The notes under the pieces: generated by a model
What the model was told of the DNA's origin: nothing
What the model saw: the letters and a program-made list of their open reading frames with translations, nothing else
The model's database searches: none
Assembly (NCBI RefSeq): GCF_002197845.1
Contig: NZ_NIDE01000001.1
Span: forward strand, 1,240,001-1,304,000
Direction: 5' to 3'
Length of the DNA: 64,000 bases
DNA from: Fimbriiglobus ruber
Lineage (GTDB): Bacteria > Planctomycetota > Planctomycetia > Gemmatales > Gemmataceae
Translations under genes and position numbers: made by a program
Shown: positions 10,467 to 42,319 of the stretch, piece by piece
Numbering within the stretch: the first letter of the stretch is position 1
Layout of the letters: each line of letters opens with the position of its first letter

Positions 10467-10550
10467 GCGGAAGTGGCGGAACTGGCAGACGCGCTAGATT
10501 CAGGTTCTAGTTCCCGAAAGGGAGTGGAGGTTCAAGTCCTCTCTTCCGCA
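10467..10550 (+). tRNA. tRNA-Leu (anticodon CAG)
   Basis: The 84-base cloverleaf has the acceptor stem GCGGAAG/CTTCCGC with discriminator A, a D-arm GGCGGAACTGGCAGACGC, the anticodon stem CTAGA/TCTAG around loop TTCAGGT (anticodon CAG), a long leucine-type variable arm TTCCCGAAAGGGAG, and the T-arm GAGGTTCAAGTCCTC. The terminal CCA is not encoded. It is the integration target of the downstream element and remains intact after insertion. Confidence 0.96.
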
Positions 10551-10552
10551 TT
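10494..10552 (+). repeat. attL: 59-bp direct repeat of the tRNA-Leu 3' part
   Basis: Identical over 59 bases to 42261-42319. It runs from the anticodon stem to two bases beyond the tRNA end. An integrase gene starts 133 bases downstream, as in tRNA-targeted genomic islands. Confidence 0.93.
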
Positions 10553-10635: not shown

Positions 10636-10684
10636 CTTGCGGCACTCGCGTTGAATTGACGTTGCCCTCCTCTTGGAGCGCGAC

Positions 10685-12007
10685 ATGGCGACCTTGCAAA
10701 TCAGAAACGGCAGCTTCCGAATCCTGTTTCGGTATCTCGGACGACGACACACCTTTACCATCGGGCGTGTCGCGAAACGAGAAGCCGAACTTCTCGCGGC
10801 AAATGTCGACCGAATTCTTCTGCGCGTGGAACAACGGCTTCTCACGGTCCCGCCCGGGATCGACATCGTGGAGTTTGTTCGCAGTGATGGCACACTGAAG
10901 ACACCCGAAGCTGCAATCGAGGAATTTACGTTCGCAGCTGTTCGCGACGGCTACGTTGAAGCACATGCAACCGGAGCGGTTGAAGCCAACACGCTGGCAA
11001 CGACCCGAATCCACCTGAACCACCTCGGTAAGACCTTGGGCGACCAATTCCTCATGCGGTCGCTTTCTCTCGCTGATGTCCAACGCCACATTGATCGGCG
11101 ATTAGCGAGCCGTCACCACGGTCGCCCCATTGGTCCTCAAACCGTGCGAAAAGAGGTTTCGACGCTCGGTGCCATTTGGACATGGGCAGAAACGCGAGGA
11201 ATGGTTTCCAACCGATTTCCCTCGCGTGGGTTGATCTACCCGAAGACCGATGAGAAATCGCCTTTCATGACCTTGCAGGAAATTGAGCGGCGCGTCGTGG
11301 CGGGAGGTTTAACCGAGGCCGAACAAGAATCTCTCTACGAGTCGCTTTACCTCCGTCGCGAAGAAATTGACAGCTTCCTCGCACACGTCCGCCAGCACGC
11401 CGCCCACCCGTTCATCTACCCTCTAATATGTACCGCCGCCCACACGGGAGCCCGTCGGAGCGAGTTGCTGAGGGTAGAAATAACTGACCTCGATCTGGTA
11501 TCGGGCACGTTACTTGTGAGGGAGAAGAAACGATCCAAAAAACAGCGGACCACCCGGCACGTTTCGCTAACACCGTTTTTGAGCGAAGTGCTGAAGGACT
11601 GGCTGGCGATCCATCCAGGAGGCCGGTATCTGTTCGGGCGATCTGGCATCGTTGCACGGAGCCGGAAACGCAGTGCAACGACCGGGCACCAATCGGGCAA
11701 GGATCGAGAAAAAACTTTGAAAGGTCGACACGCCACGGTTCGGCCGCGTGGCGATGTGGAAAACGCTCCCCTCACGAAAGACGAGGCACACGACCACTTC
11801 AAGCGAACTCTTGCTGGGTCGCGGTGGGAAGTGCTGAGAGGGTTTCACGTCCTGCGGCACAGTTTCATTTCATGCCTAGCCGCCGCGGGCGTGGATCAAC
11901 GGATCATCGATGACTTTGTTGGACACTCGACGCCGGAGCAACAAAGAAGATATCGGCACCTGATTCCGGACGTGAAGCAAAAGGCGATCGCGAATGCGTT
12001 CGGCTGA
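10685..12007 (+). CDS. Tyrosine recombinase (integrase)
   Basis: A 440-residue phage-type integrase that catalyses recombination between attP and the tRNA-Leu. The N-terminal arm and core-binding domains are followed by the catalytic domain. This shows the first catalytic Arg in TAAHTGARRSELL (about residue 260), a Lys-rich beta-hairpin (VREKKRSKK), the HxxR box HVLRHSFISCLAAAGVD, and GHSTPEQQRRYRHL with the second His and the nucleophilic Tyr. GGAG lies 7-10 bases before the ATG at 10685, favoured over the frame start at 10673. Its position just inside attL fits the usual int-at-tRNA layout. It converges on a small HTH gene through a shared terminator. Confidence 0.93.
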   Translation: MATLQIRNGSFRILFRYLGRRHTFTIGRVAKREAELLAANVDRILLRVEQRLLTVPPGIDIVEFVRSDGTLKTPEAAIEEFTFAAVRDGYVEAHATGAVEANTLATTRIHLNHLGKTLGDQFLMRSLSLADVQRHIDRRLASRHHGRPIGPQTVRKEVSTLGAIWTWAETRGMVSNRFPSRGLIYPKTDEKSPFMTLQEIERRVVAGGLTEAEQESLYESLYLRREEIDSFLAHVRQHAAHPFIYPLICTAAHTGARRSELLRVEITDLDLVSGTLLVREKKRSKKQRTTRHVSLTPFLSEVLKDWLAIHPGGRYLFGRSGIVARSRKRSATTGHQSGKDREKTLKGRHATVRPRGDVENAPLTKDEAHDHFKRTLAGSRWEVLRGFHVLRHSFISCLAAAGVDQRIIDDFVGHSTPEQQRRYRHLIPDVKQKAIANAFG

Positions 12008-12816: not shown

Positions 12817-14691
12817 CTATGGTTCAACACTGTCGCCGGGATTCCACGCCGGATTTCCCCACCCCGGCGGAATGGGATTAAAGCCGGGATCGTACATGGG
12901 CGATGGAATGGGGCACGCTCGCTGACGCAACTGCTCCTCGCGGACGTGAAGCAGGAACAGTAGGAGGTAGACGGTTGCTGCCAGGAAGACGACGGAGCGA
13001 ACGAGCATCCGCAAACGCCCGCCGAACCACCGGCGGCGGGTCAGGCTAGAATCCTCGAAATAGCGGCGGACGTTAGTGAGTAGCGGCCGTGATCGGCCGG
13101 GCAGGAACACGATTGCCTGCTGCGGGCCGAGCTGAAAAGTTTCGGCAGCCTGGAGCAACTTGCGCCCGGTTTCTTGTGTCGAGGTGCCCGAACTACTGGA
13201 CCACTGGCTCTGATGTCCCTGCTGGCTTGATGACGACGACCACGACGAATTGCGCTGGCTATTCGTCAGTCGGATCGTGCAATCCCCGATCATGTTTTGG
13301 ATGTATTCGGCCGTCTGGTAATCATTCGGCGGGCCGATAAACATCTGACAGCCGACGCAGCTGAGGAACGTCTGGTGTTGGCCGTCCGGAAAGGCCGCGG
13401 ACAGCTGGCCCATCGATTGGTAGGCAAAATTGAGCCGTATGCCGTATCCACGTCCGACGGCCATCGCTTGATCGATACTATCCATGTGCCCAATGGCGGC
13501 CGCTTCGTCGAGAAAGAATTGCACTCGCCGGGCCGGGTCCGTGCCGGCACGGAACATCGCCCGAAACATGCCCGACACCATCAACCGCAACAGCGGGGCT
13601 TGGCTTTTCAGGTGATTGGGTGGCAACACGAGATAAACCGTCACCCGGTCGCGGCACAGACTCATCGGGTCAAAAGCGTTCGGGCCGTTGCTCAGGAATC
13701 GGGCGACCGGCGGTGAGTGCAGGAAGCTCAGGTGCCGCAGGGTGGTGGAGTAGACGGAATTCGCTTCCCGGTCCTTGAACTGGCCGATTTGGTGCGCAAA
13801 CCGCCGCAGGGCTCCACCCCACGCGGGTGATACCGTCATGGCGGCAAGTGCCCCGGCCCGGGCTTCAGGATCAGCAAGGACTTCCTGGGTGTCGGTGAGG
13901 GTGCGATGCTGAGCGTCGGCGTGAGCCAGGACGAATGCCGGGAACCCCGTCAAAATGGTTTCGGCGGAATCATTCCAGTGCGCTTCCGTTTCTCGGCCTG
14001 TCCGAAAAACCAGGGCGTTGGCGAGGTCACGCACCTCGTCCAACGCGGCATCGGAATTCGGGTCGGGATGCGTGAGTGGGTTGTAGGTCCACGAAGGCGG
14101 CCCGAGGACGCCATAAGGGTCCAAAGCCACAATCTTGCTGCCGAAGCGCCGGGCGCGGTGGGCAGCGGTGGCCTTGAAAATCTCCCCTTTGAGATCAATA
14201 ACGACAGCATTGTCAGAACAAGACAGCAGAGCCGGAATAATAAACCCCGTCGTCTTGCCTCCCCCGGGTGGGGAGAACACAACCGAGTGAACACCATCGG
14301 GTAGTCGGACCGGCTCACGGGCGACCCGTTTCGAGCCGCCAAGGGCACAGTCGAAGTGACGGACGGCACCTTCAGCATCTTTAGACCGGGAAGTGAAAAG
14401 CCGGCGGGCCGCACGCAGCAAACTAGGACGTTCGGCTCCCACCAAATAGCCGAGCGGCAATCCGGTCGGACCCCCGATCAAATTGGCCGCCAATGCATCG
14501 TTGGCTGTGCCCCACCGGGCCGAGCCGTAGCTGCTAGACCTGGACCGCCGGAGATAGAGGAACGCGACGACCCCGACCCCCAGCATCGGCCACGGGTAGA
14601 ACAGGGAGTGAATGACCGCACATGAGCCGGCCCCGGCGAGACAGCCCCCGCGCTGGCACATCCGGGTAAGGAAGACCGATAGTTTACGCAT
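12817..14691 (-). CDS. Type IV coupling protein (VirD4/TraG family)
   Basis: A 624-residue inner-membrane ATPase that links the relaxase-DNA complex to a type IV secretion channel. Hydrophobic segments occupy residues about 22-46. Walker A is SPPGGGKTTGFIIPA near residue 135, followed by VVIDLKGEIFKATAAHR. Walker B is VQFFLDEAAAIGHMDSIDQA near residue 390, and the FAYQSMGQLSAAF region matches the TraM-recognition domain. A serine/glutamine-rich stretch (about 490-510) and a second hydrophobic segment near residue 565 precede a proline-rich tail, which is unusual. Its start overlaps the end of the ParB-like gene by 8 bases, implying translational coupling. Confidence 0.9.
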   Translation of the reverse strand: MRKLSVFLTRMCQRGGCLAGAGSCAVIHSLFYPWPMLGVGVVAFLYLRRSRSSSYGSARWGTANDALAANLIGGPTGLPLGYLVGAERPSLLRAARRLFTSRSKDAEGAVRHFDCALGGSKRVAREPVRLPDGVHSVVFSPPGGGKTTGFIIPALLSCSDNAVVIDLKGEIFKATAAHRARRFGSKIVALDPYGVLGPPSWTYNPLTHPDPNSDAALDEVRDLANALVFRTGRETEAHWNDSAETILTGFPAFVLAHADAQHRTLTDTQEVLADPEARAGALAAMTVSPAWGGALRRFAHQIGQFKDREANSVYSTTLRHLSFLHSPPVARFLSNGPNAFDPMSLCRDRVTVYLVLPPNHLKSQAPLLRLMVSGMFRAMFRAGTDPARRVQFFLDEAAAIGHMDSIDQAMAVGRGYGIRLNFAYQSMGQLSAAFPDGQHQTFLSCVGCQMFIGPPNDYQTAEYIQNMIGDCTIRLTNSQRNSSWSSSSSQQGHQSQWSSSSGTSTQETGRKLLQAAETFQLGPQQAIVFLPGRSRPLLTNVRRYFEDSSLTRRRWFGGRLRMLVRSVVFLAATVYLLLFLLHVREEQLRQRACPIPSPMYDPGFNPIPPGWGNPAWNPGDSVEP

Positions 14692-15487
14692 GGGGGATCT
14701 CCTGATGCGAACGATCGTTCATCATCCGAATCCAGGTCGTGACCGGGTGGCCTGAGTCGTGTGCGCGGCGGGCGCTCTTGAGGGTTTCGGAAAGGTGGTC
14801 GATAACGCCGGCCAGGGTAAGCCCGTGGCCGCGTAGGGTAACGAGGGTTCCACCGTGCAGGGATACTTTGACGGTTGTAAGGCGGGATTCCGTATCGCTC
14901 CCACGAGCCGCGCGGGTCCGCTTCCGTTCGAGTTGATCGCGGGAAAGGCCGCTCAGTTTAGCGGCGAGAAGCTCCTTCTGTTCTGTTTCCCCTTCGGCCT
15001 TGGAGATGGCGTAGACATCGCTCTGGGAAATCGTGCCGGCGGCAAAGGCATCGCGGACGTGCTCACACACCTTGCCGGCAGCGAGGATTTTGGTCACCGA
15101 TGCGGGGTCGATCTTCAAGTACCCGGCGAGTTGTTTCCCATTCCAATTGTTGAGGCGCAGGAGTTCTTCGCAAGCCTGGAACTTTTCAAACGGGGTGAGG
15201 TCGACGCGTTGAAAGAACGTCGTCAGTCGAATGGCTGCAAGCTCTTGAGGTGAGGGAATATCGTCCCACACAATGCCATTGAGTGTTTCCAATCCGACCA
15301 GCTGGGCAGCACGCCAGCGGCGTTCACCGTCGATCAGTGTGCCATCGCGCCGTAAGTGGATTGGCTCGATCTGCCGCCACTTGAGTGATGCGCCGAGGTA
15401 TTGGAGATCCGCTTGTTCAAAGGCTTTTCGTGGATTGTTGGGGTCGGGTTTGATGTCGATGACGGGATATTTGACGATCTGCTGCAT
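14684..15487 (-). CDS. ParB-like nuclease/partition domain protein
   Basis: This 267-residue protein has the N-terminal ParB/Srx domain: VIDIKPDPNNPRKAF near residue 10, then the GERRWRAA box typical of the CTP-binding pocket. A KorB-like HTH segment follows (KQLAGYLKIDPASVTKILAA). The C-terminus is basic with no recognised dimer domain. AAGGAGAGATTC precedes the ATG at 15487; the longer frame to 15565 lacks a site. It is not adjacent to ParA, which lies 19 kb away with its own small partner. Coupling to the VirD4 gene suggests a transcriptional or DNA-transfer role rather than classical partition. Confidence 0.85.
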   Translation of the reverse strand: MQQIVKYPVIDIKPDPNNPRKAFEQADLQYLGASLKWRQIEPIHLRRDGTLIDGERRWRAAQLVGLETLNGIVWDDIPSPQELAAIRLTTFFQRVDLTPFEKFQACEELLRLNNWNGKQLAGYLKIDPASVTKILAAGKVCEHVRDAFAAGTISQSDVYAISKAEGETEQKELLAAKLSGLSRDQLERKRTRAARGSDTESRLTTVKVSLHGGTLVTLRGHGLTLAGVIDHLSETLKSARRAHDSGHPVTTWIRMMNDRSHQEIPHA

Positions 15488-15561
15488 GAATCTCTCCTTG
15501 CGTTGCCGTCTGCTGTGAGACTGGAAAGAGATGGTGAATTGCCCGCATCGTTGCGGAAAAA

Positions 15562-15594
15562 GCACGGCCGGCAGAAGGAGCCTGCCGGCCGTGC
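15562..15594. terminator. Hairpin between microprotein gene and ParB-like gene
   Basis: Perfect 13-bp stem GCACGGCCGGCAG / CTGCCGGCCGTGC with a 7-base loop. There is no T-run on the minus strand, so it may attenuate or stabilise rather than terminate. Confidence 0.55.
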
Positions 15595-20096: not shown

Positions 20097-23000
20097 TTGG
20101 AGAAAACCAAAATAACAGACCTAACCCCGCTTAGCAATCTAACGAATCTTAAGCATCTGGATCTATGTGATACTAAAACTAAGGACATAAGTTCGCTCGC
20201 CAGCCTTAACCATGTCACAGGCCTAAGTTTAGAAAAAACGCGAGTCACGAATTTGAGTCCGCTTGCTTGTTTGAGAGATCTTTCAGTTTTGAATCTGAAA
20301 GACATAAAAGCGACAGATCTACAGGTACTCTCTGCTTTTTCTAATCTTACAGTTTTAGATCTTAGTGGCACTCAAATCAAGGACCTGAGCCCTCTCTCCA
20401 AGCTTACTAAGCTTTTTTCTTTGAATTTGAAGCACACACATGTAACTGACATTAAACCACTCGCTACCCTGTCGAATCTCACAGATTTGAGCCTGAGTTG
20501 CACCAAGATCACAGACATTTCCTCACTCGCCAATCTTACTCGGCTTATTTGTTTAGATCTGTACGGGACAAATATCTCAGATATAAGCCCACTCGCCAAT
20601 CTCGCACATATTAATACACTGAACTTAGAAAGCACACAGGTTACCGACCTTAGGATGTTTCCACTCGCCCATCTCTCCACATTAAATCTTAGATTGACTC
20701 CAGTAGTAGATCTACGACCGCTCTGTAATGCGACTGCGCTGACTACAATAAATTTAGCCAATTGCAGGAGAATTACGAGCGTACAAGGCCTGGGAGGCCT
20801 TCCTGTGCTCGCTACTATCAATCTGAATGCATGTGAAGAACTGGTTGATGTTGATGGACTAGCGGATTTGCCCTCCCTAAACTCGCTTAACCTTGCCGAC
20901 TGTTCTAATCTGAGAAGTATTGAAGGCTTATCAAATTTAACATCTCTGAAACGGCTATATTTGCAGTATTGTAACAATATAACTAACCTGGACGCCTTAT
21001 CTGGCCTAAGATCACTTACGGAGTTGTACATATGTTACTACTCCAACTTGACGAATATTGAAGGTCTAGCAAAACTTGTTTCCCTCACCACCCTCAGTCT
21101 TTCGCATTGCTCAGGCTTGACGAGTGTAGAGTATCTGTCTCAACTTACCGCGATCACTGTACTCGATTTGTCGCATTGCTCTGGTCTAACTAGCGTCGAG
21201 GGCCTAGCGAGACTCATAGCGATTACCCATCTCAGCCTGTCAAGTTGTTCTGGTCTGTCGAGTGTCAAGGGCTTGGCAAAACTAACCGCGCTCACTTCTC
21301 TTAATCTGTCTTTTTGTGCGGAGCTGGAGGATATCAGAGACTTGGCCGGCCTTTCATCGTTAACCACTCTCGATCTATCTGATTGCGCACAACTCTGCAA
21401 CCTCGAAGGCTTGTGCAATATGACGGCTCTCGCCAAGCTCAATCTATCTAAATGCTTTAAACTAGAAAATCTTGATGGAATGGCCGATCTACCTAAAATT
21501 GACGAAATTGACCTATCATTTAACGAAGCTTTACTCAGCATAAACGCCATAAGTAATTTGCAACATTTACGGTCATTAAATCTGTCACATTGCATAGCAC
21601 TTAGGCATATCTCACCTGTGAAACATTTGTTGGATAAAATGGAGTTTCTCTACATTGAGAACACTTTTTTTGAAGACCTGCATCCTGATATGAATGAATG
21701 GGGATTGCACGAAAATCCAGTAGACATGCTACGCAAGTATTATTGTGCAATAGAGCACGGATCGCAGCCAGACGCCGAAATCAAAGTGTTCGTGCTTGGT
21801 AATGGAGGAGTTGGGAAGACTAAACTGATAGGAAGATTGCTAGGAGAATCATTCAATTCGATACCGGAAATCCGTACACATGGAATACAGATTCCACGAC
21901 CACTTACTATTTATCATGGAGAACAGGCTATAAAGTTGCATTTTTGGGATTTTGGAGGGCAAGATATCTACCACGGTACTCATTCATTGTTTCTTACTGG
22001 GCCAGCGATATTCATGCTAATTTTATCCGATGATATGGAAAACGAGTCGGAATCGATCGTCAATGGTATCCCGGTAAAAAACAGATTGATAGACTATTGG
22101 TTTGATTATCTCGTCCAAGTTGCTGGTAAAGATGGTCATGTTGAAATGCCTATAGTTTTCGTAAAAAACAAGTGCGACTCACTTGTAGATGAGCACACTG
22201 ACTCGTCACACTACTCCTTTCCGAAAGATCGCTTTGTTCGCCTTACAAAACTTTTGAGAACAAGTGCAAAAACTGGGAGCGGCCTTGGCGACATACAAGG
22301 CTCTCTGTGGACAGCGGTATATCAGATAATGTCCAATTATCCGCAAAAGCTACTCCCGTTGAGTTGGTTTAGAGTGCGCGAGGACTTGAGAGTCATGCAG
22401 CAAAATCGATCACCGCGAACTTTGTCGCTAGCTGATTTGGCAACGATTTGTGAAAAGCATGGCTGCCCTGGGGATGAGTGCGTCGTCAGAGATATTTTCC
22501 ATCGAATGGGTGTCGTGTTTTACCGCAAAGGAATTTTTGACAACCAAATTATTCTGGATCAGTCATGGGTGCTTGACGCAGTATATACAATTTTTACGCC
22601 GAACAAAAACTTTCAAGGGATAATAAGGTCATCGGGTCGATTCAGTAGAATCGACCTGATGTATCATTTCTGGAGAAATTTCTCTAGAGAAGAGCAGTCG
22701 CTTTTTTTGAGTTTATGCAACAGTGCCACATTTGTTTCAATATCCAGGAATCTAGGGGTAGTGAAGATAGTGTATATATTGCTCCCGACATGCTCGCTCC
22801 TTGGGGAGCAATCGAAAGCAGATTATTTGCGTGGCAGCAAGATGTTAAACCCTTATGTAAAATGGAGGCCGAGTACGTTCTATTGCACGATGGCATACTT
22901 CGCATATTGCTATCAAAAGTTGGTCGTATCGCGATGGCCAATGCTATCTATTGGAAATACGGTTGTCATTTTCATGAAGAAGAAACGGGAAGCGAGGTAA
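20097..23000 (+). CDS. ROCO gene middle fragment (repeats, Roc, start of COR)
   Basis: It continues the repeat array directly after IS5 copy 1. The first half is 22-residue repeats, then repeats of the form LxxLxLSHCSGLTSVEGLAxL. Walker A GNGGVGKTK is near residue 567, the switch-II DFGGQDIYHGTHSLFL follows, then VFVKNKCDS and LRTSAKTGSGLGD, and the COR region begins LSWFRVREDLRVMQQNRSP. The true coding part ends near 22708. After that, the residues in this frame lose COR character, while the -1 frame continues it (FMQQCHICFNIQ). Confidence 0.82.
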   Translation: MEKTKITDLTPLSNLTNLKHLDLCDTKTKDISSLASLNHVTGLSLEKTRVTNLSPLACLRDLSVLNLKDIKATDLQVLSAFSNLTVLDLSGTQIKDLSPLSKLTKLFSLNLKHTHVTDIKPLATLSNLTDLSLSCTKITDISSLANLTRLICLDLYGTNISDISPLANLAHINTLNLESTQVTDLRMFPLAHLSTLNLRLTPVVDLRPLCNATALTTINLANCRRITSVQGLGGLPVLATINLNACEELVDVDGLADLPSLNSLNLADCSNLRSIEGLSNLTSLKRLYLQYCNNITNLDALSGLRSLTELYICYYSNLTNIEGLAKLVSLTTLSLSHCSGLTSVEYLSQLTAITVLDLSHCSGLTSVEGLARLIAITHLSLSSCSGLSSVKGLAKLTALTSLNLSFCAELEDIRDLAGLSSLTTLDLSDCAQLCNLEGLCNMTALAKLNLSKCFKLENLDGMADLPKIDEIDLSFNEALLSINAISNLQHLRSLNLSHCIALRHISPVKHLLDKMEFLYIENTFFEDLHPDMNEWGLHENPVDMLRKYYCAIEHGSQPDAEIKVFVLGNGGVGKTKLIGRLLGESFNSIPEIRTHGIQIPRPLTIYHGEQAIKLHFWDFGGQDIYHGTHSLFLTGPAIFMLILSDDMENESESIVNGIPVKNRLIDYWFDYLVQVAGKDGHVEMPIVFVKNKCDSLVDEHTDSSHYSFPKDRFVRLTKLLRTSAKTGSGLGDIQGSLWTAVYQIMSNYPQKLLPLSWFRVREDLRVMQQNRSPRTLSLADLATICEKHGCPGDECVVRDIFHRMGVVFYRKGIFDNQIILDQSWVLDAVYTIFTPNKNFQGIIRSSGRFSRIDLMYHFWRNFSREEQSLFLSLCNSATFVSISRNLGVVKIVYILLPTCSLLGEQSKADYLRGSKMLNPYVKWRPSTFYCTMAYFAYCYQKLVVSRWPMLSIGNTVVIFMKKKREAR
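22702..22709 (+). promoter_or_regulatory. -1 shift site: slippery TTTTTTG in the COR domain
   Basis: Zero-frame codons CTT TTT TTG contain T TTT TTG. Slipping back one base gives CTT TTT TTT GAG TTT ATG, encoding LFFEFM, which continues the COR domain. Loss of one T from an eight-T run explains it equally well. Confidence 0.5.
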
Positions 23001-32151: not shown

Positions 32152-32428
32152 TTATCCACAAGCCTAGAGTGTTAATTATTGAGTTAGATACTGTGTTAAG
32201 GGGCTCAATCCTCGCCAGAACCCATTCAAATAAAACGCAAATCCGAAACAGCCGGTGGGTAAATACACGATGGATGGTGGGCAAATACACGAAAACCGGT
32301 GGGTAAAAGCACGTTCGCTGCGGGCAGTGGGTGAAAGCACGATGATCCAGTCCCGGTGTGTGAAAACACGATGCTTGACATTGGTGTGTGAAAACACGAT
32401 AGTCCGGATATGGTGGGTAATAACACGA
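32152..32428 (+). other. Plasmid-type replication origin (oriV): DnaA box, AT-rich segment and seven iterons
   Basis: TTATCCACA (32152-32160) is a consensus DnaA box. An AT-rich stretch follows (32165-32200). Seven direct repeats of consensus GGTGKGTRAAWRCACGA then start at 32254, 32276, 32298, 32326, 32355, 32383 and 32412, with spacing 22, 22, 28, 29, 28 and 29. RepA begins at the last iteron. This is the layout of iteron-controlled plasmids, where RepA binds the iterons to open DNA and limit copy number. Confidence 0.88.
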
Positions 32429-32874
32429 AGATACGCACGCCGCTGCTCCCGGATCGTCATCCGATCCAGGATTTCTTCGTGTGCGACGTAACCGACGCTA
32501 TTCCGAAAGATGACATGGGATCGATGGAACACCCCATCTTCTCCCTCTCCACCAAGCCCGATCTGGCCATTCGGGAATACGAACACAACGGGGTCAAGGT
32601 GTCCATTGCGCCGAGTATGCTGGGTATGGCGACCATTCACGACAAGGACATTCTGATCTACTGCATCAGCCAGCTAATCGCCAAAATGAAAACCGGGGTG
32701 GGCTTAAACCGGACCCTCCATGTCAAGGCCCTCGACCTGTTGCTCGCAACGAACCGCAACATTGACGGCCGCGGGTACGAGCAACTGGTCGCTGCCCTCG
32801 ACCGACTGCGGGGCACCAGCATCCGTACCAACATTAAGAGGCTGTCCGAAAAGTGCCCTTGCTGTAAGTCGTGA
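32410..32874 (+). CDS. RepA N-terminal fragment
   Basis: About 142 genuine residues holding the first winged-helix domain, followed by a dozen residues from the IS5 end. The ATG overlaps the last iteron, so RepA binding would also repress its own expression. Confidence 0.75.
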   Translation: MVGNNTKIRTPLLPDRHPIQDFFVCDVTDAIPKDDMGSMEHPIFSLSTKPDLAIREYEHNGVKVSIAPSMLGMATIHDKDILIYCISQLIAKMKTGVGLNRTLHVKALDLLLATNRNIDGRGYEQLVAALDRLRGTSIRTNIKRLSEKCPCCKS

Positions 32875-33789
32875 GATTCCTTTAAGTTAGTCGCTCCTTC
32901 ATCATTCAGGAGCGAGGTCATGGACGCGCCCGTTCGTAAACCGTATCTGACGGATTTGACCGATGTCCAATGGGAGACCATCGAGCCCCTTCTGCCCGCC
33001 GCCCGGTTCGGAGGGCGGCCCCGGTCGGTCGACCTCCGGGAGGTGATGAACGCGATCCTGTACGTGAACCGGACCGGGTGCCAGTGGTCCCTGCTCCCGC
33101 ACGATTTCCCGGCCAAGAGTACGGTGTACGAATACTTCGCCCAGTGGCGGGATGACGGCACCTGGCAACACCTCCTGGATGTCCTCCGGGAGGGGTATCG
33201 GGAGGTCCATGCTCCGAGTCACGAGCCGACCCCGAGCGCCGCGAGCATCGATAGTCAGTCGGTCAAGGGGACCGAGCATGCGGGTGGGAACGGGTATGAC
33301 GCGGGCAAGAAAATCCAGGGCCGGAAGCGGTCGATCGTGGTCGACACGCTCGGGTTGTTGATGACCGTGGCGGTCACCGCCGGGCACGTCGACGATGCGG
33401 CCGCGGCCCCGTCCGTGCTCGAATCGTTGGACCGTGAGGCGTACCCGCGGTTGAAGGTCGTATGGGCCGACGGGAAGTACCACAACCATGCCCTGAACGG
33501 GTGGAAGGACGGTCATCCGGAACTCAGATGGGAACTCGTCATCGTCCGCCGGCCGGACGGGGCGAAGGGGTTCGTCCTGTTGCCCAAGCGGTGGGTGGTG
33601 GAGCGGACCTTCGGGTGGCTCGGTCGCGCCCGCAGGCTAAGTCGGGACTACGAACGAAATACTAGTTCTAGTGAATCTATGGTTAAAGTGCGGTCGATTC
33701 AATTGATCCTCAATCGCATGGACCCCAAAAAGTGTTATCCCCCATTTAAATATAGAGTTGCATCAAAATAGTACTTCCCAGACAGGCTC
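32838..33789 (+). mobile_element. IS5-family element, copy 2
   Basis: A 952-bp copy nearly identical to 19141-20091 in opposite orientation. Terminal repeats are GAGGCTGTCCGAAAAG and GAGCCTGTCTGGGAAG, with TAA target duplications at 32835-32837 and 33790-33792. It interrupts repA. Confidence 0.93.
32920..33771 (+). CDS. IS5-family transposase
   Basis: This 283-residue DDE transposase is almost identical to that of copy 1. The catalytic residues lie in AASIDSQSVKGTEHAGG, VVWADGKYHNHAL and WVVERTFGWLGRARRLSRDY. AGGAG precedes the ATG at 32920. It is intact and probably able to act on both copies. Confidence 0.93.
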   Translation: MDAPVRKPYLTDLTDVQWETIEPLLPAARFGGRPRSVDLREVMNAILYVNRTGCQWSLLPHDFPAKSTVYEYFAQWRDDGTWQHLLDVLREGYREVHAPSHEPTPSAASIDSQSVKGTEHAGGNGYDAGKKIQGRKRSIVVDTLGLLMTVAVTAGHVDDAAAAPSVLESLDREAYPRLKVVWADGKYHNHALNGWKDGHPELRWELVIVRRPDGAKGFVLLPKRWVVERTFGWLGRARRLSRDYERNTSSSESMVKVRSIQLILNRMDPKKCYPPFKYRVASK

Positions 33790-34420
33790 TAAGACCGGCG
33801 GCCAGGAAATCACCTCGGGGTTCGGGATGATAGATAGCTGGACGGTCATTCGGCACACCGAGTCCGGGCGCATGACGGAGATGCGCGTGACCCTGTCCGA
33901 ATGGATTTACAACGCGGTTACGAAGCACGAAGTATTAACCCTGCACCGCAACTATTTTCGGCTCCGCAAACCGCTGGAACGGCGGATGTATGAGGTCGCC
34001 CGCAAACACTGCGGTCAACAGGATGAGTGGGCCGTTTCCCTTGACCTGCTTCGGAAGAAGTGCGGATCGGCTTCGAGCGACAAGGAATTCCGCCGACTGG
34101 TGAGCCTGATTTGCGACGAGGACGCCCAGCATAGCCACATGCCTGATTACGCCGTCCGCCTGGACGACGCTACCGTGCGATTCACCAATCGTAACACCAT
34201 GAAAGCGGTCACTGCGATCCCTGATCCGATCCTGTTTCCCGTTCTCGACAGCGAAACCTACCACGAGGCTCGAATCGTCGCCCCAGGGTATGACGTGTAC
34301 GCCCTGGAAGAGCAATGGCGGGAGTTCTGGTTTGCCAGCGGGAAGCCCGATTTGAAGAGCCCGGACGCGGCCTTTATTGGGTTCTGCAAATACCGTCACC
34401 AGAAGAAGCCCAGCCCTTAG
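33758..34420 (+). CDS. RepA C-terminal fragment
   Basis: After about 12 residues from the IS5 end, the frame holds the RepA C-terminal part: GFGMIDSWTVIRHTESGRMT, EMRVTLSEWIYNAVTKHEVL, LRKPLERRMYEVARKHCGQQ and the final YALEEQWREFWFASGKPDLK. No own ribosome-binding site is evident. Confidence 0.75.
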   Translation: MHQNSTSQTGSKTGGQEITSGFGMIDSWTVIRHTESGRMTEMRVTLSEWIYNAVTKHEVLTLHRNYFRLRKPLERRMYEVARKHCGQQDEWAVSLDLLRKKCGSASSDKEFRRLVSLICDEDAQHSHMPDYAVRLDDATVRFTNRNTMKAVTAIPDPILFPVLDSETYHEARIVAPGYDVYALEEQWREFWFASGKPDLKSPDAAFIGFCKYRHQKKPSP

Positions 34421-34423
34421 CGA

Positions 34424-34492
34424 GAAAGGGAGAATTCAAGAAAGGGAGAAATTTCGCTTTCCTGAATTCTTGCTTTCCGGAAAGCGAGATTT
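34424..34492. repeat. Palindromic repeat cluster downstream of repA and parB-like gene
   Basis: Repeats of the type GAGAAA..TTTC and CTTTCCNGAA, including GCTTTCCGGAAAGC (34472-34485). They match the motif found before and inside the ParA gene. Confidence 0.65.
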
Positions 34493-34493
34493 C

Positions 34494-34763
34494 TTACTCT
34501 TTGAGGCCCTGTTTCTCTTCCCAGGCGTCGAGCGCTTCGATTAGTAACTCGTTCAGCTTCAAATCGGCGAATACAGCCCGCTGTTTGAACCGTTTGCGGA
34601 AGGCCGGGGAAACCTTGAACGCCAGGGCTTCTCTGTTCTCCGATTCCCCCACAGCGGCGCGAATGGGAGAAGCCGTGTGCGACACCCGCTGGATAGCTTC
34701 GGACATGGGAACGGCTTGTTCGGTGGTCAGGGCTAGGAGGTCGAGAGGCGGGCGCTTGCTCAT
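34494..34763 (-). CDS. Small partition partner protein (ParG/CopG-like)
   Basis: This 89-residue protein begins MSKRPPLDLLALTTEQAVPM and ends in a ribbon-helix-helix-like segment FKVSPAFRKRFKQRAVFADL followed by KLNELLIEALDAWEEKQG. Small RHH proteins of this kind work with ParA ATPases and bind the centromere. The ATG at 34763 overlaps the ParA stop by 4 bases (coupling); the longer frame to 34865 is within ParA. It would bind the surrounding palindromes and repress the operon. Confidence 0.75.
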   Translation of the reverse strand: MSKRPPLDLLALTTEQAVPMSEAIQRVSHTASPIRAAVGESENREALAFKVSPAFRKRFKQRAVFADLKLNELLIEALDAWEEKQGLKE

Positions 34764-35461
34764 GCTGGGGTTCTTTCTGTTTTCTTTTCTCCCTTTCTTA
34801 CTTTCTCGCTTTCCGCCTTTCCGGAAATCTCGCTTTCTTGAAATCTCGCTTTCACACAGCACCACACATCGGCTAGTTCCCGTGCGGCCACGCCCTTGGG
34901 GTCGATCTCGAACGCAGTCTTGCCGTGGGCAAAGCTTTCGGCGTAGATGACCCGCTCGTGCATCCGGGCCGGAAGAACCAGACCGAGGGAGTCGAGGGCC
35001 AGGGCAACAGCGTCGTTATGCTTGAGGTGGTGGCGGACCCGGGCCAGCATGAATAGGAATGGCCGGCCAGATTTCTTAACGATTGGCAGCCCTTTGACCA
35101 AGGCGCGAAGGTCCGTCGGGGTAGGATTCAACGGCATCAGGATCAAATCGGCGACGGCGAACAGGTCCGGGTTCACGCCCCCGATCGATGGAGCGGTGTC
35201 AATGAACAGATATTGTGCGCCGGCCTTTTCTAGCGCCCCAAGGTGAGCCGTCAGGTCGGTCAGGGTGAGGGGAGAATACCTCGGCGAATCCAGCCCGGCT
35301 CGCTTCCGCTGGTTGAACCAGTCGGCGGTGCTGGCCTGGGGGTCGGTGTCGGAGATGACAATCGGGCCGTCGCCGGCTTGCTCCGCTGCCACAGCCAGAT
35401 GCACGACCGAGGTGGATTTGCCGGAACCACCTTTCTGATTTGCGAGAACGATCACTTTCAT
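34760..35461 (-). CDS. parA: ParA-family partition ATPase
   Basis: This 233-residue Walker-type ATPase starts MKVIVLANQKGGSGKSTSVV with the deviant Walker A (KGGxxKST), SDTDPQASTADW (switch I) and YLFIDTAPSIGG (Walker B). LPARMHERVIYAESFAHGKT is typical of small plasmid ParA proteins. I chose the ATG at 35461; the upstream in-frame residues are translated palindromes. The last about 30 residues (CCVKARFQESEISGKAESEK..) are encoded by the same repeats, which is unusual. It drives segregation of the plasmid form. Confidence 0.9.
   Translation of the reverse strand: MKVIVLANQKGGSGKSTSVVHLAVAAEQAGDGPIVISDTDPQASTADWFNQRKRAGLDSPRYSPLTLTDLTAHLGALEKAGAQYLFIDTAPSIGGVNPDLFAVADLILMPLNPTPTDLRALVKGLPIVKKSGRPFLFMLARVRHHLKHNDAVALALDSLGLVLPARMHERVIYAESFAHGKTAFEIDPKGVAARELADVWCCVKARFQESEISGKAESEKVRKGEKKTERTPA
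34816..34853. repeat. Palindromic repeats inside the ParA 3' coding region
   Basis: CTTTCCGGAAATCTCGC and CTTTCTTGAAATCTCGC stand in tandem, same motif as the clusters on both sides. Confidence 0.65.
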
Positions 35462-35482
35462 GAATACAAGAATTACATCGAA

Positions 35483-35572
35483 TCTCGCTTTCATGAAAGC
35501 GATATTTCTAGAAAGAGAGAAAACAAGAAGGCGAGATTTCTCCCTTTCCGGAAAGGGAGAAATCTCGCCTTC
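35483..35572. promoter_or_regulatory. Palindrome cluster upstream of parA (operator/centromere)
   Basis: CTCGCTTTCATGAAAGCGA, then ATTTCTAGAAA, then a perfect 46-bp palindrome at 35527-35572 centred on TTTCCGGAAA and containing GAGATTTCTCCC on one side. All share TTTCNNGAAA. The position before parA fits a parS/operator bound by the small partner. Confidence 0.75.
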
Positions 35573-35803
35573 GACCCGAACCGCATGCTGGCCGGGAGGT
35601 CGGTCCGCCGTCGTCACCGAGATCGTTCGCCGGAAGGGGAACTCGATCGGTCACGACGGAACCGAATCAAATCATCCGCTGTTGCCACGGTTCGAGTCAC
35701 TAAAATTCTTGGAAGCGTCCGTGTAGAATGTGCTTCCCGTAGACGACGCCCGCGCCCCGGCGGTCGTCCGTAACTCCTTGCGACGTGCCACAGGACTCGC
35801 GAA

Positions 35804-42260: not shown

Positions 42261-42319
42261 CTAGATTCAGGTTCTAGTTCCCGAAAGGGAGTGGAGGTTC
42301 AAGTCCTCTCTTCCGCATT
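42261..42319 (+). repeat. attR: 59-bp direct repeat, tRNA-Leu 3' fragment
   Basis: Identical to 10494-10552. The preceding 5' half resembles a D-arm (TTTGGCAGACACAC) but cannot form the GCGGAAG acceptor stem, so it is not a second functional tRNA. It is the element's own attP arm. Confidence 0.92.

Follow-up and report, generated by a model that had tools for sequence, protein, structure and literature searches.

Our analysis indicates that the par locus of the window (the whole 64-kb stretch of DNA that was analysed) very probably represents a type Ib, ParF/ParG-like partition system, with a split centromere-operator that includes a block in coding DNA and a small partner protein predicted from sequence to bind it. 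The computed basis for this reading is the 8-bp register of the repeats, their excess over randomized sequence, their recurrence in relatives, the codon choice at the parA 3' end and the tracking of partner residue 48 by the unit sequence. In keeping with type Ib systems, the ParA is a small ATPase without an N-terminal DNA-binding domain, its relatives and a profile comparison (hhalign) point to a small downstream partner with a C-terminal ribbon-helix-helix, and an array of short boxes lies beside the par genes (8-bp register, three blocks). If so, the locus offers a natural case in which one stretch of DNA must serve both as partition site and as the end of the motor gene. The features of the locus are as follows.

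34424–34493: array 'down', lying between the partner stop and the repA 3' end, 8-bp units in register in 9 of 9 cases
34474: TTTCNNGAAA after repA
34494–34763, minus strand: partner gene (P0002), 89 aa, predicted ribbon-helix-helix centromere-binding protein
34760–35461, minus strand: parA, 233 aa, encoding a Walker ATPase of ParF type that lacks an N-terminal HTH
34768–34853: array 'mid', with 10 of 11 units in register; the whole array is coding sequence of the parA 3' end
34818 and 34834: TTTCNNGAAA in the parA 3' end
35430–35475: short chain of 5 units spanning the parA start, where TTTCATGAA contains the ATG
35487–35572: array 'up', 5' of parA, with 11 of 11 units in register
35489, 35505 and 35545: TTTCNNGAAA before parA
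35527–35572: perfect 46-bp palindrome, within the upstream array

An 8-bp register in three arrays

The unit was defined as 8 bp, with GAA at positions 1–3 or TTC at positions 4–6 followed by two variable bases; either orientation was accepted, GAATTC scoring as both a GAANNN and an NNNTTC unit, and in-register chains of GAANNN/NNNTTC were scanned across the window at periods 5–13. The longest period-8 chains were those of 'up' (11 units), 'mid' (10) and 'down' (9), followed by the 5 units at 35430–35475, by 4 (34609) and by 3; no in-register run of 9–11 units was found outside the three arrays in the 64-kb window, and at periods 5–13 other than 8 no chain of more than 5 units occurred there. 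The observed value was reached by none of 1000 dinucleotide shuffles for each array.

The first-pass annotation had described palindromes after repA, within the ParA C-terminal coding region and before parA, and all six TTTCNNGAAA sites of the window do lie at these places, inside the reported stretch. The perfect 46-bp palindrome that it named is exact; no other palindrome of the window comes near it in length, the second longest having 18 bp. The repeat unit itself, however, is not a palindrome, as had been supposed, and is an 8-bp element found in direct or inverted orientation. Since direct as well as inverted units share one 8-bp register, the palindromes are best taken as by-products of that register, and the simple palindrome reading was dropped. 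A heptad reading of the omega type was also rejected, there being no period-7 signal and the best period-7 chain (4 units) lying outside the par locus. A scan of 34400–35700 for sigma-70 promoters gave no match.

Related loci and the translated end of parA

For comparison we collected 10 plasmid loci and a further 32 found with the partner alignment (31 on genome contigs and 1 locus from viral contigs). Loci in which no intact ParA was found (L024, L030 and L046) and duplicates (L041 of L012, L048 of L016) were left out of the counts, and the scored set comprised 38 loci, the window included. A significant block (P≤0.05) was present before parA in 22/38 loci and between the ParA core and the partner gene in 28/38; by the GAA/TTC measure the latter block was not significant in 10/38. 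In a motif-free test, period 8 was the best of periods 5–13 in 30/38 loci for the upstream block and in 30/38 for the middle one, and the junction block exceeded every parA-internal control window in 35/38. Within the window's clade (10 loci) the upstream, middle and downstream blocks were significant in 10, 9 and 4 loci, respectively; 13 distant loci, namely 12 together with L014, which was kept out of the close set, gave P≤0.05 upstream in 9/13 and in the middle in 5/13. The initial proposal had been a centromere spread over the whole par locus: a split centromere-operator with a coding block stands as the best reading of it, with comparative support, but blocks that follow the partner gene are not a general feature, being significant (P≤0.05) in only 7/37 loci. 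A search for further members added none to the counts. The single one among 392 genomes of the window's phylum was the window's own, the single one among 369 genomes of another set was the query genome, and a further set of 385 genomes gave 5 (query genome included). Many of the loci are MAGs, so single phylum assignments are soft (several phyla by record titles).

TP228 ParF (4dzz) is the nearest solved structure to the window's ParA by sequence (E 3e-13), and in a predicted-fold search with this ParA the ParF chains rank 1–4. Judged by its profile score, the protein is related to the ParA family partition ATPases of NCBIfam NF041546 but lies outside the named equivalog (133.5 bits, under the curated cutoff of 180). 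Its Walker motif starts at residue 10 and its core ends at about residue 201–208; the tail, about residues 205–233, is encoded by the middle array, and the partner start overlaps the parA stop (ATGA). The repetitive ParA tail that the earlier reading had pointed out is thereby borne out, the C-terminus being repetitive because the array is translated.

A typical distance between the conserved ParA core and the partner start is 50–62 nt, and at 98 nt that of the window is the longest among the 38 loci. In L027, L028 and L031 ParA stops early (204–208 aa) and a gap of 35–49 nt carries the remaining junction. L001, L002, L025 and L029 use the TGA within the array motif GAATTCATGA as their ParA stop. 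In the window, L026 and L032, parA shares 1 to 23 nt with the partner gene, and translation runs through the whole block. The unit spacers of the window's middle block are GA, CG and AA, with no AT spacer, so that translation of ParA continues as far as the partner start; the order in which stop and spacers changed we infer. Since the parA stop takes different positions along the middle array, the tail of ParA has the look of site DNA that is translated. We suggest that the middle block would be a fixed DNA site through which the parA stop drifts, with the tail as a by-product, and such an array would explain why the C-terminal tails of a group of ParA proteins are so odd and variable. In L031, array-like GAATTCATGA is also found where the partner gene ends (1380–1430), and the array of this locus may write the C-terminus of the partner too.

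It could be argued that the tail has been selected as protein, for example as a basic DNA-binding extension, and that the DNA repeats merely reflect it. The tail is indeed rich in K, R and E, and a basic C-terminal stretch is found in many relatives, but we consider this explanation unlikely in view of the codons used. The last 36 parA codons hold 10 in-register units, against a mean of 3.21 after synonymous randomisation with local codon usage, which thus destroys the register; 0/1000 draws reached 10 units (P 0.001, the floor of 1000 draws), and the codons are therefore bent to the register beyond the needs of the protein. Over the whole set of loci the same null gave P≤0.05 in 18/40 rows and P≤0.01 in 9/40 (17/38 and 9/38 without the duplicates L041 and L048). 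Moreover, an array of like kind is non-coding in L027 and L028, where it lies in the gap between parA and the partner gene, and the confidence of the ParA model falls below 50 over residues 215–222 and 229–232.

Rather improbable, in our judgement, is that the arrays are operators only, through which the partner represses parA and its own gene, and not the partition site. The upstream block overlaps the parA start and is significant in every locus of the window's clade, and ParG, too, represses via an operator (available part of PMC7308502). Nevertheless, three blocks of 9–11 units, two of them away from a promoter position, exceed what an operator needs, and known type Ib repeats serve both roles (available part of PMC5016525). 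Confined to the 46-bp palindrome is the explanation that this is a transcription terminator, to which we give quite a low probability: scored on the minus strand, it resembles a terminator hairpin with T-rich DNA behind it, but its halves share the 8-bp register of the upstream array, and it may have a dual role.

The partner, residue 48 and the host element

The partner of the window scores 23.3 bits against Pfam RHH_10, below the curated cutoff of 27, and 25/28 of its aligned relatives match this family at E≤0.01. Aligned by hhalign with a ParG-like set (five partners, of which four carry a ParG or ParB annotation), the partner profile gave a probability of 97.4 over 46 columns. The AlphaFold model of the partner monomer is one long helix (53–85) and not a ribbon-helix-helix. 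With this model, Foldseek placed vimentin and microtubule chains first (E≥1.5), with no ribbon-helix-helix chains among the matches listed, and VIA-align gave no match above Z 3.9. A PDB search with the partner sequence alone gave no match, and with the partner alignment the best was 2kel (E 0.092).

The repeats are very probably docking sites for this small protein. We suggest that ribbon-helix-helix dimers of the 89-residue partner would bind successive 8-bp units in either orientation, one dimer per unit, at three blocks: before parA, at the parA–partner junction and after the partner gene. Arrays coated in this way would then be captured by ParA on the nucleoid, and the block before parA, which overlaps the start codon, would double as an operator for autorepression.

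Residues 46, 48 and 50 of the partner were taken as facing outward from the predicted DNA-reading strand, since 47, 49 and 51 are near-invariant hydrophobics; the geometry of the strand we take to be that of ribbon-helix-helix proteins. At position 48, 9 loci have Ala and 29 have Asn, and the unit sequence follows this residue. AC, CA or CC precedes GAA in 1/159 units with Ala48 vs 164/270 with Asn48, the frequency before control GAA outside the arrays being 0.20 (Ala48) and 0.19 (Asn48). The groups in this contrast are defined by residue 48 itself, and partner residue 15 separates them equally well. The window's nearest ParA relative, L032 (74% identical, in the window's ParA clade at 100/100), has a partner with Asn48, and 15/22 of its units carry AC, CA or CC. 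Since the tree cannot order L032 relative to the window, the data call for one switch or more without establishing two; the contrast may thus rest on one evolutionary switch only. We tentatively entertain the possibility that, in this branch of type Ib systems, selection on the 8-bp register in a coding part of the centromere writes the ParA C-terminus and that residue 48 (Ala or Asn) sets the spacer dinucleotide. Array and protein would then have changed specificity in step, leaving neighbouring systems that do not cross-react. The window and L032, differing in both strand residue and site sequence, form a ready-made pair with which a change in centromere specificity and the splitting of plasmid incompatibility groups become testable by single-residue swaps. 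Separately, one Desulfovibrio sp. DV record set contains two such par loci (L039 and L054), each on its own contig, and so offers a natural test case for cross-talk.

The locus lies in an element integrated at a tRNA-Leu and not on a free plasmid: the contig to which the window belongs is 1.3 Mb or longer, and a 59-bp perfect direct repeat of a tRNA-Leu(CAG) 3' end brackets 10494–42319, a 31.8-kb element whose cargo includes a T4SS coupling protein, a ParB-family protein, a MOBF relaxase and an RPA-type repA.

10494–10552, plus strand: left 59-bp repeat, putative att site, tRNA-Leu 3' end
10673–12007: tyrosine integrase, beside the left repeat
32410–32874, plus strand: repA N-terminal part, interrupted (RPA, PF10134)
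32920–33771, plus strand: IS4/5-type transposase gene interrupting repA
33758–34420, plus strand: repA C-terminal part, interrupted (RPA, PF10134)
42261–42319, plus strand: right 59-bp repeat, putative att site

Since the transposase gene splits repA, replication of the element by repA is probably impossible; the par ORFs and arrays are intact, and the par locus may either stabilize an excised circle or be a remnant. The integrated element also carries a second partition-like gene (14684–15565, minus strand), which overlaps the coupling-protein gene and encodes a protein with a ParB N-terminal domain and a weak HTH, and a gene for a large LRR-Roc-COR protein of the ROCO GTPase type (20097–23000, plus strand).

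Although one block adjoins the repA 3' end, it is very improbable that the arrays are replication iterons bound by RepA, given that their sequence tracks the strand residue of the partner and that they accompany parA–partner pairs beside unrelated rep genes: RPA in the window, repC on the plasmid of L001 and in L016, other rep genes in L011 and L013, and none in the stretch examined of L010. With such differing rep neighbours, the arrays follow the par genes and not the rep type. Finally, one might take the palindromes for a mobile or REP-like element spread into the locus, seeing that they resemble one another and stand at several places, of which one is coding. This is barely credible, since the core pattern GAAAGNGAGAWWTC has just 7 exact matches in the 12.36-Mb genome, 6 of them within these arrays, and relatives keep the positions though the unit sequence has diverged.

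Comparison with known partition systems

In the open-licence literature we found no paper on these arrays or on a block at the parA 3' end, nor a family-wide array in the 3' end of a motor gene with a matching change in the partner. Among the closest known systems is ParF–ParG–parH of TP228: ParF is the nearest solved ParA by both sequence and fold, and a small ribbon-helix-helix partner (predicted here) is encoded downstream of parA. The TP228 box is reportedly ACTC, an assignment said to go back to Zampini 2009 and Wu 2011, whereas the unit here is GAANNN with a variable dinucleotide. Unlike TP228, moreover, the window has one full block within the coding sequence at the 3' end of parA and a further one beyond the partner gene. 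According to the available part of PMC7308502, parH consists of degenerate tetramer boxes with AT-rich spacers. An IncX1 locus annotated ParG, used as a control for parH-type DNA, gave a strong 8-bp signal upstream of parA; at its junction, a 51-nt gap, the 8-bp signal was not significant (P 0.156).

The three separate arrays of the window resemble parS1–3 of the pSM19035 delta–omega system, in which direct and inverted repeats are bound alike (available part of PMC5016525). The repeats of pSM19035 are heptads, in contrast to the window, where period-7 chains reach at most 4 units and the heptad array of the omega family was not found; a further difference is that each parS of pSM19035 sits at a promoter. 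The type Ib parCAB locus of Myxococcus pMF1 likewise has iterons on both sides of its par genes, and also in other ORFs, with an 8-base motif, AGATGTCT (available part of PMC3235114). These iterons differ from the arrays of the window in being dispersed and few per site, and in that part of PMC3235114 none is reported inside parA. Additionally, the ParT–parS system of SCP2 has its partition site within the coding sequence of a par gene, although this site is a single 18-bp inverted repeat in the ParB-like gene parT and no array within parA (available part of PMC12260392). Considering the precedents of pSM19035, pMF1 and SCP2, a split centromere is not in itself a novelty, and the same holds for a site within coding sequence.
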